A stretch of DNA of 64,000 bases from an uncultured beta proteobacterium (GTDB lineage Bacteria > Pseudomonadota > Gammaproteobacteria > Burkholderiales > Burkholderiaceae_C). The notes under the pieces are model-generated. The model did no database searches and was not told where the DNA came from. It saw nothing but the letters and a program-made list of their open reading frames with translations. Within the stretch, counting starts at the first letter, position 1; each line of letters opens with the position of its first letter. Positions 4,917-49,539 of this stretch are shown here, one piece after another. The stretch lies in the NCBI GenBank assembly GCA_903822435.1, contig CAIJPE010000053.1:37322-101321 (forward strand), written 5' to 3'. The position numbers and the translations under genes were made by a program.

Positions 4917-6076
4917 AGTGCGAGTTGCCGGCAAGCCAGGGCGAGTTGGAAGCAGACACGGTCGGTGTCCTCGGTGGCCATCTGCGCAAACAGCGGCAGG
5001 GTCAGGATGCCGCGGCCGATGCGCTCGGCCGCCGGCAGCTGCCCGTCGCGCCAGCCCAGCCCGCGGTAGAACGAGAACAGGTGCAGCGCCGGGTAGTGCA
5101 CCCCGGTGCCGATGCCGGCTTCCTTCAGCAGCTGCATCACGCCGGCGCGGCCGCCGGCCAGCCGCTCGGCCGGCAGCACCACCTGGAACATGTGCCAGTT
5201 GGGCGTGATGCCGGCCGCCGAGATGGCCATGGGAGTGGGCGGCAGCCCGATGCCCAGCGAAGCCAGGCCGTGGCGTTCGGTCGCCTGGAAATACGCCGCG
5301 GCCAGCTCGGTGCGGCGCTGGGTGATCGCTGCCAGGTGGGGCAGCTGCCCCAGGCCGATGGTGGCGTTGATGTCGGTCAGGTTGAACTTGCCGCCCGGCG
5401 TCTCCACGTCCATGCCATCCGCGCCGGTTCGTACCACGCCCTGAAGGCGCAGTCGCTCGGCCCGCTCGGCTTCGTCCACGGTATTCATCACCAGGCAGCC
5501 GCCCTCCGCGCAGGTGATGTTCTTGTTGGCCTGGAAGCTGAAGCTCACCAGGTCGCCGAAGCTGCCGATGCGCCGGCCCTGCCAGCGCGCGTCGATGGCC
5601 TGGGCAGCGTCTTCGATCACGCGCAACTTGTGCCGCCGCGCGATGTCGTACAAGCGGTCCATGTCCACCGGCAGGCCGGCCAGGTACACCGGCATCAGGG
5701 CCCGGGTGCGCGGCGTGATGGCGGCCTCGACCGCGGCCAGGTCGAGGTTGCGGGTGACCGGGTCGATATCGACGAACACCGGGCGCGCGCCCACGGCCAC
5801 CACGACGTTGGCCGTGGCCACCCAGGTGATGGCGGAGGTGATCACTTCGTCCCCCGGCCCGATGCCGGCGACCCGCAAGGCCACTTCCATGGTGGCGGTT
5901 CCATTGGCGAAGGCGCGCACGGGCCGGCCGCCGAACAGCGCCGAGAGTTGCGTCTCGAAGGCCTGGACCTTGGGGCCCGAGGTGATCCACCCCGAAGCCA
6001 GCACGCGGCCGACCTCGGCGATGGTCTGCTCGTCGATGTGGGGGCGCGTGAAGGGCAGGAAGGCGGGGTCCGGCAT
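4913..6076 (-). CDS. arnB: UDP-4-amino-4-deoxy-L-arabinose aminotransferase ArnB
   Basis: ArnB is a PLP-dependent aminotransferase of the DegT/DnrJ/EryC1 family that converts UDP-4-keto-arabinose to UDP-L-Ara4N using glutamate. The 387 residues are full length. The substrate loop is SGWITSGPKVQAFE, the cofactor Asp lies in RVIEDAAQAIDA, and the Schiff-base lysine is in FSFQANKNITCAEGG. The PIYLAGL-like strand (LMPVYLAGLPVDM) precedes it. The gene follows the flippase gene by 22 bases and overlaps arnC by four. Confidence 0.94.
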   Translation of the reverse strand: MPDPAFLPFTRPHIDEQTIAEVGRVLASGWITSGPKVQAFETQLSALFGGRPVRAFANGTATMEVALRVAGIGPGDEVITSAITWVATANVVVAVGARPVFVDIDPVTRNLDLAAVEAAITPRTRALMPVYLAGLPVDMDRLYDIARRHKLRVIEDAAQAIDARWQGRRIGSFGDLVSFSFQANKNITCAEGGCLVMNTVDEAERAERLRLQGVVRTGADGMDVETPGGKFNLTDINATIGLGQLPHLAAITQRRTELAAAYFQATERHGLASLGIGLPPTPMAISAAGITPNWHMFQVVLPAERLAGGRAGVMQLLKEAGIGTGVHYPALHLFSFYRGLGWRDGQLPAAERIGRGILTLPLFAQMATEDTDRVCFQLALACRQLAL

Positions 6077-42415: not shown

Positions 42416-42610
42416 GGGTCTTCTCCGATCGGTCCGCAGGCATCGCGGAACCATCCATCTGTGCATGCAAGTTCACACACCCAAGAAAAGTGTGATTGAC
42501 GAGCAGTCGGGGAAACCCGTGGTCGTCTGTTGAACCTGCACCCTGCGGCATCATTGCCGGGCGTGTTGGCCAGGTTGCCGGCAGCCCCCTACCGAAGACG
42601 GAATCCCGTG

Positions 42611-43729
42611 ATGAGCCTCCCGCTAAGCCCTGCCGCTGCCACACAGGCCGTGATCTGGGGTGGCCTGTTGATCGGCCTGCTGCTCGGCGCGGTGGCGCAG
42701 ACGACCCGCTTTTGCACCATGGGTGCGCTGGCCGACTGGTTCGGCTTTGGCGGCGCGGCCCGGTTGATGATGTGGGTGCTGGCCGTCACCTTGGCCGCCA
42801 CGTGCACCGTGGCCCTGATGAGCCTGGGCTGGTTCGACCCTTCGCGAACCGCCGCCTGGAGCGACCGGTTCCTGTGGCTTTCCTACGCGGTGGGCGGCCT
42901 GGTGTTCGGGTTCGGCATGGTGCTCGCCTCGGGTTGCCCCCAGCGCAACCTGGTGAAGGCTGGCGCAGGCAGCCTGAAGGCCTGGGTGACTCTCGTCGTG
43001 GCGGCCATCTCGGCCGAGATGACGCTGCGCGGCGTGCTGGCCGAGGCCCGGGTGCGCGGCCTGGACGGCGCTGCCATCCAGTTGGCCCACCCTCAGGATC
43101 TCGGGTCCACCTTTGCCCCGCTGGTGGGCGCCACGCCGGCTGCGTTCCGGTGGGCAGTGGTGGTGCTCATGCTGCTGGCGGCCGCTTGGCTCTTGTGGCG
43201 CTCGAAGGAGGCCATGGACCGCTTTCACTGGATCGGCGGCGCCGCGGTCGGCTTGCTGGTGCCTGCGGCGTGGCTGCTCACGGGCCACCTCGGGTTCATA
43301 GCCGAGCATCCCGAGACGCTGGAGGCGTCCTGGATGGGCACCTATTCGCACCGGCCCGAAGCCTTGACCTTTGCCGCTCCCATCGCGCACAGCCTCGACC
43401 TGCTCACGCTCTGGTCGGACCGCAACAACACCCTCAGCTTCGGCGTCATGGTCACGCTGGGGGTCGTCCTGGGCAGCCTGGCCGCGGCCCTGCTGCGCAA
43501 GGAATTCCAGGTCGAGTCGTTCCAGAACGCCGAAGACATGGTCAACCACCTGTTGGGCGCCGTGCTGATGGGCTTCGGTGGCATTACCGCCATGGGTTGC
43601 TCCATCGGCCAGGGCATCAGCGGCCTGTCGCTGCTATCGGCGGGTTCTTGCCTGGCGGTGGCGGGCATCGTGGGCGGGGCCTGGCTCGGCTTGCGGCTGC
43701 AGGCGTGGCGGATCGAGCGCAGCGCCTGA
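42611..43729 (+). CDS. Full-length YeeE/YedE-family transporter
   Basis: A 372-residue membrane protein with about ten helices. YeeE motifs are VAQTTRFCTMGALADWFGFG and, repeated in the second half, GGITAMGCSIGQGISGLSLL; FGFGMVLASGCPQRNLVKAG is in the first half. Homologues import thiosulfate or move other small sulfur compounds. ATG 42611 is chosen at the start of homology, not the TTG-initiated track ORF. It is divergent from soxC. Unlike the other full-size copy at 36915, it reads as complete. Confidence 0.88.
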   Translation: MSLPLSPAAATQAVIWGGLLIGLLLGAVAQTTRFCTMGALADWFGFGGAARLMMWVLAVTLAATCTVALMSLGWFDPSRTAAWSDRFLWLSYAVGGLVFGFGMVLASGCPQRNLVKAGAGSLKAWVTLVVAAISAEMTLRGVLAEARVRGLDGAAIQLAHPQDLGSTFAPLVGATPAAFRWAVVVLMLLAAAWLLWRSKEAMDRFHWIGGAAVGLLVPAAWLLTGHLGFIAEHPETLEASWMGTYSHRPEALTFAAPIAHSLDLLTLWSDRNNTLSFGVMVTLGVVLGSLAAALLRKEFQVESFQNAEDMVNHLLGAVLMGFGGITAMGCSIGQGISGLSLLSAGSCLAVAGIVGGAWLGLRLQAWRIERSA

Positions 43730-44001: not shown

Positions 44002-44618
44002 TCAGGCCTTGGGGCCTTCGCCGATCACGATGCGCGTATCGCTGGCGTACCGATACGGCGGGATCTCGAGGTTGGTCGGCGCGGGCTTGTTCTTGAACAC
44101 ACGGCCGGCGCCGTCGAAGGTCGAGCCGTGGCAAGGGCAGAAAAAGCCGCCCGGCCAGTCTGCGGGCAGGCTCGGGTTGCCGGCGCCTTTCGGCGCCACG
44201 CCTGGCGAGCAGCCCAGGTGCGTGCAGATGCCGACAGCCACGAAGACCTCCGGCCTGACCGCGCGAGCGGCATTCTTCGCATAGGGCGGCTGCTGGTCCT
44301 TCAAGGACAGCGGATCGACGAGTTGGGCGTCGTGACCTTGCAGGGACGCCAGCATCTCGGGCGTGCGCCGCACGATCCAGACGGGCTTGCCACGCCACTC
44401 CAGACCTTGAGGCCGCCCGGCGGGACGTCCGCGATGTCCACCTCGACGGGGCCGCCTGCGGCCTTGGCCCGTTCACTGGGTTCCAGGGTCTCGACGAACG
44501 GGATGGCCGTGGCCACAGCCGCCACGCAACTGGCCGTGCCAGTGGCCAACAGCCAGAAGCGACGTTCCGGGTCACCGGCGACGGCAGCCTGAGGCTGAAG
44601 GGGTAGGGTATCGCTCAT
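44002..44618 (-). pseudogene. petA: Rieske iron-sulfur protein of the bc1 complex, frameshifted
   Basis: This is the ubiquinol-cytochrome c reductase Rieske subunit. It has a membrane helix (RFWLLATGTASCVAAVATAIPF) and the cluster motifs ICTHLGCSPG and FFCPCHGSTFD, each with Cys and His ligands. Near 44403 one base is missing: GGLKV leads into EWRGKPVWIVRR only after a -1 correction. The cytochrome b and c1 genes that normally follow are not present; a small DUF3149-like gene lies there instead. It is divergent from ccoG. Confidence 0.83.
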
Positions 44619-44747
44619 GGGCCATAGACCCAAGTTCCGTGCCATTCGTTCCGTCTGAACACCGCGCTCCTCGCGCGGGGCTGTCGACGCCCGGTGCTCA
44701 GGGCCTTGGCGCAGGGGGCACCAACCCTCGAGGGGGACATTGCAAGC

Positions 44748-44793
44748 CTGCCACGGCTGCCGGGACGGCCTGCCAAACCCACGGCAATGGCAG
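44748..44793. repeat. Cluster of CTGCCA repeats upstream of ccoG
   Basis: CTGCCAC (44748), CTGCCGG (44757) and CTGCCAA (44770) occur in the same direction, with an inverted ATGGCAG at 44787-44793. The first two are nine bases apart, the same spacing as the first two CTGCCAA repeats before the persulfide dioxygenase operon at 47255. This may be a second binding region for FisR, whose gene lies downstream. Inference from repeats only. Confidence 0.35.
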
Positions 44794-44861
44794 AACGCCC
44801 GTGGCGGCAGACATCCCTGCGTGCCCATGCCACGTTTTCGAGGCACCCGTGGTCGATCTGC

Positions 44862-45905
44862 CGCCAGGCTATGCCCTTCGACCTGGGCAAGCGGCGCTTC
44901 TACGTCTTCGGATTGGTGCTGTACCCGCAGAGCTTCATCTACATGACGGCCCTGTTGTTGATCCCGGCCCATTCGCTGTTCCTGTTCACCACCGTGGCCG
45001 GCCGGCTGTGGTGTGGCTATGCCCGCCCGCAGACCGTCTACACCGAATTGTTCAGGTGGGTCGAGCGCAGGATCGAAGGCGACCGGATCGCCACGGGCTT
45101 GTGGACGGGCTTTACCTTCGTCGGTTCCTTCACGCCGATCCACTCGCTGGCCGCGGAAGTGGGCAGGCTGGCCCTGGGCCCCTGGGAGACCTTCTGGGTG
45201 CTGTTCTACCGATTTGCCACCTATGGCAATGCCGGCTTCATGCGCGAGCAGGTGTGCAAGTACATGTGCCCCTATGCGCGCTTCCAGAGCGCCATGCTCG
45301 ACAAGGACACGCTCATCATCACCTACGACCAGGCGTGTGGCGAGCCCCGCGGTTCGCGGTCGAAGAAGGCCGACCCCAAGGCCCTGAACCTGGGGGCCTG
45401 CATCGACTGCAACCTGTGCGTGCAGGTGTGCCCCACCGGCATCGACATCCGCAAGGGCCTGCAATACGAGTGCATCGGCTGCGCGGCCTGCATCGACGTG
45501 TGCGACGACGTGATGAAGAAGATGAACTACGCCCCGGGACTGGTGCGCTACGACACGCAGAACGGGCTGGCGCAGGGGCTCACGGCCAGCCAGCGGCTGC
45601 GCCGCGTGTTCCGGCCGCGGGTCATCGTCTACAGCGTGATCCTGCTGCTGATCTGCAGCGCGCTGGGCGTCAGGATTGCCTTGCGTTCGCCGTTCAAGGT
45701 GGACGTGGTGCGAGACCGCGCTGCGTTGGCCCGGCTCGTGGAGGACTGCTACGTGGAGAACGTCTATCGCTTGCAGGTGATGAACGCAACCGAGCGGCTG
45801 CAGCACTACCGGGTGACGGCCGACGGCCTTCCCGGCCTGCCGACTCAGGCCAGGCCGAGCGCCTTCAGCCGTCGGTACAGCGTTCGCTCGCTCAGGCCCA
45901 GTTGA
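44862..45905 (+). pseudogene. ccoG: CcoG-type ferredoxin/cytochrome oxidase accessory protein, truncated at three places
   Basis: CcoG is a membrane polyferredoxin needed for cbb3 oxidase copper/heme maturation. Recognisable parts are RRFYVFGLVLYPQSFIYMTA, YGNAGFMREQVCKYMCPYAR and the two cluster motifs CIDCNLCVQVCPTGID and CIGCAACIDVC. Homology begins only at RQAMPFDLG (about 90 residues late) and ~25 residues are missing between GDRIA and TGLWTGF. A conserved CPQTVY cysteine is Arg (CGYARPQTVY). After DGLPGL the frame runs into antisense fisR, losing ~80 residues. ATG 44871 could start a 344-residue product. Confidence 0.8.
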
Positions 45906-47215
45906 TGGGCCATCTCGAGCCGTGTGAGCTGGCCGCCCTGGACCAGCTGCCTCAGTTCGTGGTCGAGGTCGTGTCTGGGCAAGCGTTCGTGGGCAGGTGC
46001 CCTGAGCCGCCTGCACCGGGGGCGTGATGCGGCCCCAGGTCCTCCGGCAGGTGCTCGGCGCGCACGATGCCGTCGTCGGCAAAGAGCCGCGCCCGGTCCA
46101 GCACGTTGCGCAACTCACGGATGTTGCCGGGCCAGTCGTGGGCCTGCAGGCGGGCCATGGCCTCGGGTTCGACCGAGACAGGGTGCTTGCTCGAACCGCC
46201 GCGCTGCAGGAACGAGTCGGCCAGCATCGGGATGTCGGCCACGCGCTCGCGCAGGGGCGGCAGAAGGATCGGGAACGCCCTGATGCGGTAGTACAGGTCT
46301 TGCCGGAAGCGCCCGTCGGCCACCATCTGCGCCAGCGGCTTGTGCGTGGCCGCCACCAGCCTGAAGTTGGCTTGCTGCGTCTCGATCCTGCCCACGCGGC
46401 GGAAGCTGCCCGACTCGATCAGGCGCAGCAGCTTGACCTGCATGGCCAGGGGTACGTCGCCCATCTCATCGAGGAAGAGCGTGCCCGCCTCGGCGGTTTC
46501 GACCAGGCCCTTCTTGCGCGTATGGGCTTCCGTGAACGCGCCCTTCTCGTAGCCGAAGAGTTCGCTCTCGAACAGCGTCTCGGTCAGGCCCGAGCAGTCC
46601 ACCACCACGAAGGTGGCCGGAGGCCCGGTCGCTGACCTCGTGCACGGCGCGGGCGAAGAGTTCCTTGCCGGTGCCGGATTCTCCCGGCAGCAGCACGGGC
46701 AGCATCGAAGGGGCCACGCGCTGGACGGCCGACCGCGCGGCATTGAAGGCCGGTGCGCGCCCCACCAGGCCTTCGGCGCTGGGGCGGGCCGAGGCACTGC
46801 GCACGGTGACCAACCGCTCGACGTAGGCCACCACCTCGCGCCCGGCGTCCAGGATCGGCCGCAGTTCGACGTCCACATGCTCCGGTCCGCGGGGCGTGTG
46901 GTGGATGTGCAGCGCTCGGTCGGGCCCCTTGAGTTCGAAGGCCTTCTTCATCGGGCAGTGTTCGCCGGCATGGTCGCAGGGCACGTCGTAATGGTGTGAA
47001 ACGCGAAAGCACTTCTGGCCCACGTAGGGCTTGCCGGCCGTCCCGAACTGTCGAAGGTACGCGGTGTTGGCGGCCAGGATGCGGTACTCGGGGTCGAGCA
47101 CGATCATCGGCTGCGGCTCGTGCTCGAGATACGAAATCAGCGCTTGCACGTGCACTGCGGGCCCAGGACCGGTGGCGGTACCCTGGGCATCAGCCCGGGT
47201 CTTGGCGTCTTGCAT
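45845..47215 (-). pseudogene. fisR: FisR-type sigma-54-dependent regulator, two frameshifts
   Basis: FisR senses sulfane sulfur and activates sulfide-oxidation genes with sigma-54. The N-terminal PAS-type sensor has cysteines at 69, 80 and 87 (KCFRVSHHYDVPCDHAGEHC); the +11/+7 spacing equals that of the three sensing cysteines of Cupriavidus FisR. The AAA+ domain has Walker A GESGTGKE, the loop GAFTEA (usually GAFTGA) and Walker B LFLDEMGD. The Fis-type helix-turn-helix (LTRLEMAHQLGLSERTLYRR) ends at 45845. Frameshifts occur near 46623 (one extra base after HEVSDRA) and near 45985-46010, before the DNA-binding domain. As read, no single protein contains all three parts. Confidence 0.87.
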
Positions 47216-47254
47216 CGCCGTTGCTTTCGCGGCGTGCAGCGATTGTGCGCCGGG

Positions 47255-47303
47255 CTGCCAAGTCTGCCAACCCGGCCTTGCAGGCTGCCAAAGGGCCTGC
47301 CAA
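47255..47303. promoter_or_regulatory. Four CTGCCAA direct repeats, candidate FisR upstream activating sequence
   Basis: CTGCCAA occurs at 47255, 47264, 47285 and 47297, all in the same direction, 105-153 bases upstream of a sigma-54-type promoter. Two pairs, spaced nine and twelve bases, suit an oligomeric enhancer-binding protein. The site lies between divergent fisR and the DUF2892-dioxygenase operon, as expected for FisR. Binding is inferred. Confidence 0.5.
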
Positions 47304-47407
47304 GGCCACGGCGGCGGCGTTCGCCGGATGGGCCGGTGCCGGAAGCTGAGTCCATAAAGTGCTGTCGAATCAACAGGTTGAGCACGTTGTTCGGCTCCGC
47401 CCCGATG

Positions 47408-47423
47408 TGGCACGGCTCTTGAT
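47408..47423 (+). promoter_or_regulatory. Sigma-54 (-24/-12) promoter of the DUF2892-dioxygenase operon
   Basis: TGGCACGGCTCTTGAT matches the sigma-54 consensus TGGCACG-N4-TTGC(A/T) at all positions except the -12 C, which is A. It is 60 bases before the DUF2892 start. The upstream repeats and the sigma-54 activator gene support it. The -12 change would weaken it. Confidence 0.6.
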
Positions 47424-47483
47424 AGAGCACCGTCGCGGCGCTCCTCGTGGCCGCCACCAGTTTCAGCATCAAGGAAACACATC

Positions 47484-47678
47484 ATGACCAAGAACGAAGG
47501 CAGTCTGGATCGGGTCCTGCGCGTGGCGGGGGGCTTGTTGCTCATCGGCCTGGCAGCCACCCACGCGCTGGGTGCATGGGCCTATGTCGGCATCGTGCCA
47601 CTCGTCACGGGTGCCGTCGGAATGTGCCCGCTGTATTCGATCCTGGGCATCAACACCTGCCCGCTGAACCAGCGCTGA
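47484..47678 (+). CDS. Small DUF2892 inner-membrane protein
   Basis: A 64-residue protein with two transmembrane helices (LRVAGGLLLIGLAATHALGA and WAYVGIVPLVTGAVGM) and the family end CPLYSILGINTC, with two cysteines. DUF2892 proteins resemble the membrane part of the rhodanese YgaP and accompany sulfide-oxidation genes. GAAAC and AAGGAAAC-type sequence precedes the ATG. The persulfide dioxygenase starts two bases after its stop, so they are coupled. The exact role is unknown. Confidence 0.87.
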   Translation: MTKNEGSLDRVLRVAGGLLLIGLAATHALGAWAYVGIVPLVTGAVGMCPLYSILGINTCPLNQR

Positions 47679-48580: not shown

Positions 48581-48721
48581 ATGGACACCCAAGCACTCAC
48601 CCCCGAACTGTCGGTGGCGCCGCAGATCGTCGGCGCCGACATGCCTGCGGTGCCGCGCAAGCAGGCCCCGATGGTGGAGCACAACCTGCTCGCCCCTGCG
48701 GGGTGCCGCGGATGGCGCTGA
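48581..48721 (+). pseudogene. Remnant of a DUF442 (TIGR01244) sulfur-transferase-like gene
   Basis: Three bases after the dioxygenase stop an ATG opens a 46-codon frame. The first ~22 residues (MDTQALTPELSVAPQIVGAD) match the start of the DUF442/TIGR01244 domain, a phosphatase-like partner often fused to or beside these dioxygenases. After that the sequence bears no resemblance and ends at TGA within the start of the TauE gene. About 85 residues of a normal domain are gone. It is too short for the ORF track. Confidence 0.55.
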
Positions 48722-49539
48722 GCCTCTTGGGCCTGGGCCTGGGCGCCGTCGTGGGGCTGATCCTGGCGCTGGCGGGCGCAGGCGGCGGCATCCTGGCCGT
48801 GCCGCTGCTGGTCTTCGGGCTGCACCTGACGATGATGCAGGCCGCGCCGGTCGGCTTGATCGCCGTCGGCGCGGCTTCGGCGTTCGGCGCGGTGCTCGGG
48901 CTTCGTGAGGGGCTCGTCCGCTATCGTGCAGCGGCCCTCATCGGCTGCACCGGCATGCTGCTGGCCCCCGTGGGCGTGCGCCTGGCACGGGTCATCCCCA
49001 ATGCGCCGCTGATGGTGGCGTTCTCGGTCGTGCTGGCCTGGGTGGCCTTTCGCATGTTCCGGCAGGCGCGGCTTGCGGCCGCGGGCAGGCCACAGCCTGC
49101 CCATGCCCAGTCGCAACTGCCGTGTGTTCTCAATCCGACGGAAGGCCGCTTGATCTGGACCCTGCCTTGCGCCTGGGTGCTGGCGGCCACGGGCGTGGTG
49201 TCGGGCATCCTCAGCGGCTTGCTCGGCGTGGGCGGCGGCTTCGTCATCGTGCCATCGCTCAGCCGCTACACCAACCTGGCCACGCGCAGCATCTTCGCCA
49301 CCTCGCTGGCCGTGATCGCGCTGGTATCCATTGGCGGCGTGGGCGCGGCGGCCTGGCAGGGCACCATCGCCTGGGACCTCGCCGGCCCCTTCGCCCTGGG
49401 TGCCATCGTGGCACTGGTGGCTGGCCGATGGGTGGCCGCCCGCCTGGCCGGGGCGCGCCTGCAGCAGGCCTTCGCGGTGACCAGCGGCGCGGTGTCGCTG
49501 GTGTTGCTGGCGCGTGGGATGGGATGGATCACTGCGTAA
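48712..49539 (+). CDS. TauE/SafE-family sulfite-type exporter
   Basis: A 275-residue membrane permease with eight likely helices. The family's repeated motif is seen in the first half as LILALAGAGGGILAVPLLVF and in the second as GLLGVGGGFVIVPSLSRYTN. The middle contains a short loop with two prolines and a Cys. ATG 48712 is used; a GTG at 48703 is possible. TauE proteins export sulfite and related anions, which suits the position right after persulfide dioxygenase. Substrate is inferred from context. Confidence 0.88.
   Translation: MALSLLGLGLGAVVGLILALAGAGGGILAVPLLVFGLHLTMMQAAPVGLIAVGAASAFGAVLGLREGLVRYRAAALIGCTGMLLAPVGVRLARVIPNAPLMVAFSVVLAWVAFRMFRQARLAAAGRPQPAHAQSQLPCVLNPTEGRLIWTLPCAWVLAATGVVSGILSGLLGVGGGFVIVPSLSRYTNLATRSIFATSLAVIALVSIGGVGAAAWQGTIAWDLAGPFALGAIVALVAGRWVAARLAGARLQQAFAVTSGAVSLVLLARGMGWITA

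Follow-up and report, generated by a model that had tools for sequence, protein, structure and literature searches.

How is a persulfide-detoxification operon controlled when the activator gene beside it is broken? The question is raised by a 64,000-nucleotide stretch of DNA from an uncultured beta proteobacterium (contig CAIJPE010000053.1; the whole stretch is referred to as the window), in which positions 47255–47423 separate a damaged fisR gene from the genes for a YgaP-like transmembrane protein (YgaP-TM), a persulfide dioxygenase (pdo) and an exporter (tauE). In the passages concerned of PMC7315123 and PMC9774590, FisR is described as activating pdo/sqr operons in Acinetobacter and as a persulfide-responsive activator in Cupriavidus, acting on sulfide-oxidising operons via sigma-54 in both. 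We conclude that the segment is very probably the control region of the sulfide/persulfide-detoxification operon, under FisR, integration host factor (IHF) and sigma-54. The sequence elements, their conservation and spacing, and their co-occurrence with FisR are direct observations, presented first.

Repeat array, IHF-type site and promoter

The segment contains the following features:

47255–47261, + strand: CTGCCAA repeat 1, candidate FisR half-site; register kept in the paralogous locus (L005)
47264–47270, + strand: CTGCCAA repeat 2; its complement, TTGGCA, doubles as the -35 element of a predicted fisR sigma-70 promoter
47285–47291, + strand: CTGCCAA repeat 3
47297–47303, + strand: CTGCCAA repeat 4; 42 bp, or four helical turns, from the core of repeat 1
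47368–47380, + strand: putative IHF-consensus site AATCAACAGGTTG, perfect to WATCAANNNNTTR with no mismatch, 40 bp upstream of -24
47408–47423, + strand: -24/-12 element of sigma-54 type, TGGCACGGCTCTTGAT, in which TTGAT is a variant -12; start of the transcript predicted near 47434

The four same-direction copies of CTGCCAA that an earlier note had reported are all present, starting at 47255, 47264, 47285 and 47297 (spacings of 9, 21 and 12, each about one turn or two of the helix). When the 269-bp spacer was dinucleotide-shuffled 20,000 times, CTGCCAA reached two copies at most, and any 7-mer at all reached four copies in 12 of 5,000 shuffles. Across the 64-kb window it is the sole 7-mer with four copies within 60 bp. 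Window-wide the motif is not enriched (9 found, 11.2 expected), so the signal lies in the clustering. An Rfam search for a structured RNA or riboswitch gave no match.

FisR relatives were collected from family, order and GTDB contigs. Among the hexamers of 19 close fisR spacers CTGCCA ranks first in enrichment (78 copies where 5.8 are expected, z 28); 18 of the spacers contain it at least twice, and it still ranks first at 50–57% identity within the same family (43 observed, 5.5 expected). In more distant relatives it falls off and TGACA/TGTCA variants rise. As a conserved unit the 7-mer was dropped, as its last A varies among relatives; what stands of the proposed repeat is CTGCCA, with core TGSCA, and copies may be flipped. 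The core is a pseudo-palindrome in which a flipped orientation alters the central base pair alone, and array sites are found in both orientations among the relatives. Of all periods from 6 to 20 bp, 10.5 bp best fits the pairwise core distances (p about 3e-4), and the array spans 41–43 bp, four helical turns, in 10 of 18 spacers. The earlier expectation that the repeats would be conserved in orthologous spacers was borne out: CTGCCA arrays with -24/-12 elements recur in close fisR spacers, in a paralogous locus of the same genome (contig C262) and in Cupriavidus metallidurans CH34. At FisR loci outside the family (for example L050 and L051), TGACA/TGTCA repeats replace CTGCCA and the recognition helix looks similar; no residue change in that helix obviously accounts for the replacement of TGCCA by TGACA/TGTCA in distant relatives.

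The promoter had been called nearly perfect and placed about 105 bases further on. The position holds, with 104 bases separating the last repeat from TGGCACGGCTCTTGAT, and there is a single mismatch to TGGCACG-N4-TTGCW; that mismatch, however, falls on the C in the GC dinucleotide of -12. The GG of -24 is present in TGGCACG at 47408–47414, and ten bases from it GA stands in place of GC. Among FisR promoters of the clade, 23 of 29 carry TTGA at -12, against 3 of 24 outside it, where TTGC is found in 19 of 24. Judged by these counts, the TTGA -12 is a conserved clade variant rather than a lost promoter. Scans of the organism's own genome for TTGCW- and TTGAW-type elements came out near background, and FisR-specificity of the TTGA variant is not shown by them. 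A TTGG-type -12, neither TTGC nor TTGA, occurs before cydPA (L152), upstream of cydA (L234) and at 44629–44644 of the window.

IHF-type sites were counted in 53 spacers with a clear -24/-12, allowing at most one mismatch, 28–43 bp upstream of -24. Such a site is present in 24 of the 53 (1.1 expected), in 15 cases 39–41 bp before -24 (0.24 expected); a smaller group lies 29–31 bp before it, one turn nearer.

The broken fisR and its paralog

The genes on either side of the segment are:

45955–47215, - strand: fisR, broken; frame change near 46614, C-terminal helix-turn-helix missing
47484–47678, + strand: first operon gene, YgaP-like transmembrane protein (PF11127), 64 aa
47681–48577, + strand: pdo, persulfide dioxygenase-like protein of the metallo-beta-lactamase fold, 298 aa, intact, 81% to its paralog
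48703–49539, + strand: tauE, TauE/SafE-type exporter, intact

One base near 46614 of the window fisR is absent from the C262 copy; at the 3' end of the window gene the homology stops beside a truncated ccoG and the helix-turn-helix is lost. Before and after the frameshift alike, most differences between the two copies are at third codon positions. Because this bias persists past the frameshift, the damage is recent or in part an assembly error. The pdo operon adjoins a regulator gene, and the product of pdo has NF040641 as its top NCBIfam match, with a score under the family cut-off. A Fis-type helix-turn-helix is missing from that regulator, so the window is classed as a target region and not as a complete FisR system.

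The window's genome (6.07 Mb in 426 contigs), probably from the order Burkholderiales to judge by its relatives, holds a second, diverged fisR-pdo locus, L005 on C262, whose FisR is about 86% identical to the window's. The BLAST match between the two loci stops short of the spacer and picks up again within the first gene. Even so, four CTGCCAA repeats occur in the C262 spacer, with gaps of 9, 21 and 13 (9, 21 and 12 in the window), and TGGCACGCGTCTTGAT lies about as far from them as the promoter does in the window. A three-way alignment shows conserved blocks at the repeats, at the IHF-type site and at the promoter. C262 FisR has the architecture of a sigma-54 activator, with a PAS-like N-terminus and an AAA+ domain (PAS_4, Sigma54_activat and AAA_lid_14); the window copy has the same domains, split over two frames. 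The C262 protein keeps its helix-turn-helix, ..RKELARRAGLSERTLYRRLK, aligned to NtrC/NifA chains through residue 463–465; no helix-turn-helix Pfam model scored on it at E 0.001. The three sensor cysteines, spaced as Cys-x10-Cys-x6-Cys, are present in C262 FisR, in the window copy as far as its N-terminus can be read, and in 62 of 65 relatives, among them those linked to cydA. The 4-mer composition of C262 fits the window's, which is consistent with a common genome and no proof of it. As the adjacent fisR is broken, control of the window operon would have to come in trans from the intact C262 FisR. Of the FisR control proposed earlier, the conservation of the array together with FisR stands; the picture changes in that the neighbouring fisR is broken and an IHF-type site also lies between array and promoter.

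The frameshift and helix-turn-helix loss in fisR, together with a frameshift in petA and the truncation of ccoG, could mean that the locus is a relic whose spacer has not yet eroded and no longer responds. We consider this unlikely: the array, IHF site and promoter are intact, the reading frames of YgaP-TM, pdo and tauE are open and complete, and an intact FisR with the same array is encoded on C262.

Beyond fisR, the window contains:

44748–44793, no strand assigned: second array, weaker than the first (CTGCCA, CTGCCA, TGGCAG), lying between petA and what is left of ccoG
44629–44644, - strand: -24/-12-like element TGGCACGGAACTTGGG, oriented towards the frameshifted petA and separated from the second array by about 104 bp
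44002–44592, - strand: petA (Rieske), frameshifted
44694–45905, + strand: ccoG/fixG, both ends truncated, with an internal gap
42530–43729, + strand: open reading frame for a YeeE/YedE-like sulfur transporter near the sulfide locus, identified by eye

The decayed petA/ccoG block abuts the broken fisR, and the genes downstream of pdo look intact.

Arrays and FisR across genomes

Arrays precede pdo in seven of seven genomes with a close FisR and in none of 23 others, some of which have a pdo 70–81% identical. FisR loci totalling 351 kb contain 36 CTGCCA clusters, and none lies in 351 kb around other activators. Together with the close fisR spacers, the C262 paralog and C. metallidurans CH34, this supports the candidate enhancer that the earlier note had seen here. 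A single fisR is flanked by arrays on its pdo side and its cydPA side at L010, L011, L037 and L038; in C. metallidurans CH34, arrays with sigma-54-type promoters before pdo-sqr and tauE flank fisR; and L013 has the order fisR, array, promoter, petA. Eight FisR-bearing genomes have an array before cydA, in two of them off the fisR contig (G054, and C305 in the present genome). In G082 an array stands before cydA with no FisR detected at the threshold used. Since cydPAB, petA and tauE of relatives have similar arrays and sigma-54-type promoters in front of them, the FisR regulon probably includes, and so couples sulfide oxidation to, the sulfide-resistant oxidase.

Some further clusters were recorded. 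At L234/L255 (G082:C1:110400) a CTGCCA array precedes cydPA. On C305 of the present genome (L152), one cluster (2943–2978) lies between ccoG and a small open reading frame upstream of cydPA, and another (5825–5861) upstream of an open reading frame resembling flavin/NAD-binding oxidoreductases. A cluster on C283 was rejected and appears to be a coding repeat. In a genome-wide scan for triple repeats across the family, hits outside FisR loci mostly looked like simple coding repeats; taken by itself, with no promoter, the pattern lacks specificity.

The repeats might bind another protein, with FisR a mere neighbour. In the literature searched, with the primary 2017 FisR paper outside its coverage, no DNA site or binding specificity of FisR was found, which leaves room for such a protein and makes the novelty of the motif provisional. 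Against it, pdo lacks arrays where a close FisR is absent, arrays flank fisR on both sides, and they stand at cyd genes on separate contigs of FisR-bearing genomes (G054, C305); we regard it as very unlikely.

The array might instead serve mainly to repress fisR, with pdo activated via other sites. One further feature bears on this:

47242–47247, - strand: predicted fisR -10 element CACAAT, separated from repeat 2 by 17 bp; does not vary in the three-way alignment, only suggestive

On the minus strand, TTGGCA of repeat 2 and CACAAT 17 bp away make a plausible sigma-70 promoter for fisR; the arrangement recurs in L007 and L010 and, slightly altered, in L008, L011 and L012. Arrays also precede cydPA, petA and tauE with no divergent fisR promoter, however, and the excess of the promoter geometry over control spacings is modest. 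Repression as the main role is thereby most improbable. As the array overlaps the likely fisR promoter, FisR may in addition limit its own synthesis; the modest excess leaves negative autoregulation as a suggestion only.

That the array is chance or an in-frame coding repeat, as spacings of 9, 21 and 12 (multiples of three) and a minus-strand reading frame of Trp-Gln repeats might hint, is practically negligible in view of the shuffle test and the conservation across spacers, and the coding version is refuted by the paralog's last gap of 13, which breaks the frame.

Proposed mechanism and known systems

Control by FisR, IHF and sigma-54 remains our preferred reading, and several points weigh against it. 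The local fisR cannot encode a working activator, and C262, a separate 11-kb contig, could in principle be foreign. The -12 element lacks its usual C (TTGAT, not TTGCW), and the window array has no clear site at turn position three of five. FisR-like proteins of about 50% identity outside the family mostly have few CTGCCA copies nearby, and the spacers are related by descent and so not fully independent. Binding, bending, induction and action in trans are deduced from sequence.

In the mechanism that we propose, FisR, a sigma-54 activator that senses sulfane sulfur through three cysteines, would bind the CTGCCA array, presumably with one helix-turn-helix per TGSCA core. The pairs 9 and 12 bp apart would then form two dimer sites, two helical turns apart. 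Bending of the DNA by IHF at 47368–47380 would allow the FisR oligomer to reach the sigma-54 polymerase at 47408–47423, and modification of FisR by persulfides would lead to the ATP hydrolysis that opens the promoter. In the window, this role would fall to the C262 paralog, whose own spacer carries the same array.

Classical sigma-54 activator sites are usually described as inverted repeats. Like the enhancers of NtrC-, NifA-, NorR- and XylR-type systems, the segment combines upstream activator sites, an IHF site and a -24/-12 promoter; unlike them, its sites are mostly direct repeats of the pseudo-palindromic TGSCA, helically phased. The system of Cupriavidus pinatubonensis JMP134 (Li et al. 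2017, as treated in passages of PMC7315123 and PMC9774590) is a close parallel: CH34, a sister species, has the same CTGCCA array by fisR and pdo-sqr. The window differs in its broken fisR and second copy. The Acinetobacter baumannii locus A1S_1707-1711 is alike in its divergent sigma-54 activator, its pdo-sqr-tauE operon and its predicted sigma-54 promoter, and sulfide induction of that operon is lost in a fisR mutant (PMC7315123, passages on this locus). A. baumannii FisR is reported to be without the regulatory cysteines of the Cupriavidus protein; the passages concerned give no operator, and they describe cydAB as also induced by sulfide with no attribution to FisR (PMC7315123).

FisR/sigma-54 control is thus known; what would be new is an operator in helical phase, a conserved TTGA at -12 and a wider regulon. 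We give an even chance to a broader proposal, in which FisR operators form a class of their own: arrays of 4–6 single TGSCA half-sites, each facing either way, in helical phase along about four turns, acting together with IHF and a conserved -12 of TTGA type and serving a regulon that joins pdo/sqr/tauE to cydPAB and petA/ccoG, and in which a genome may lose one fisR copy and keep its target array under the paralog. The CTGCCA array offers a testable FisR operator that can be scanned for across proteobacterial genomes, and from it one would expect direct activation of cytochrome bd oxidase by FisR. If true, FisR-driven cytochrome bd would explain the sulfide induction of the sulfide-resistant oxidase in FisR bacteria.
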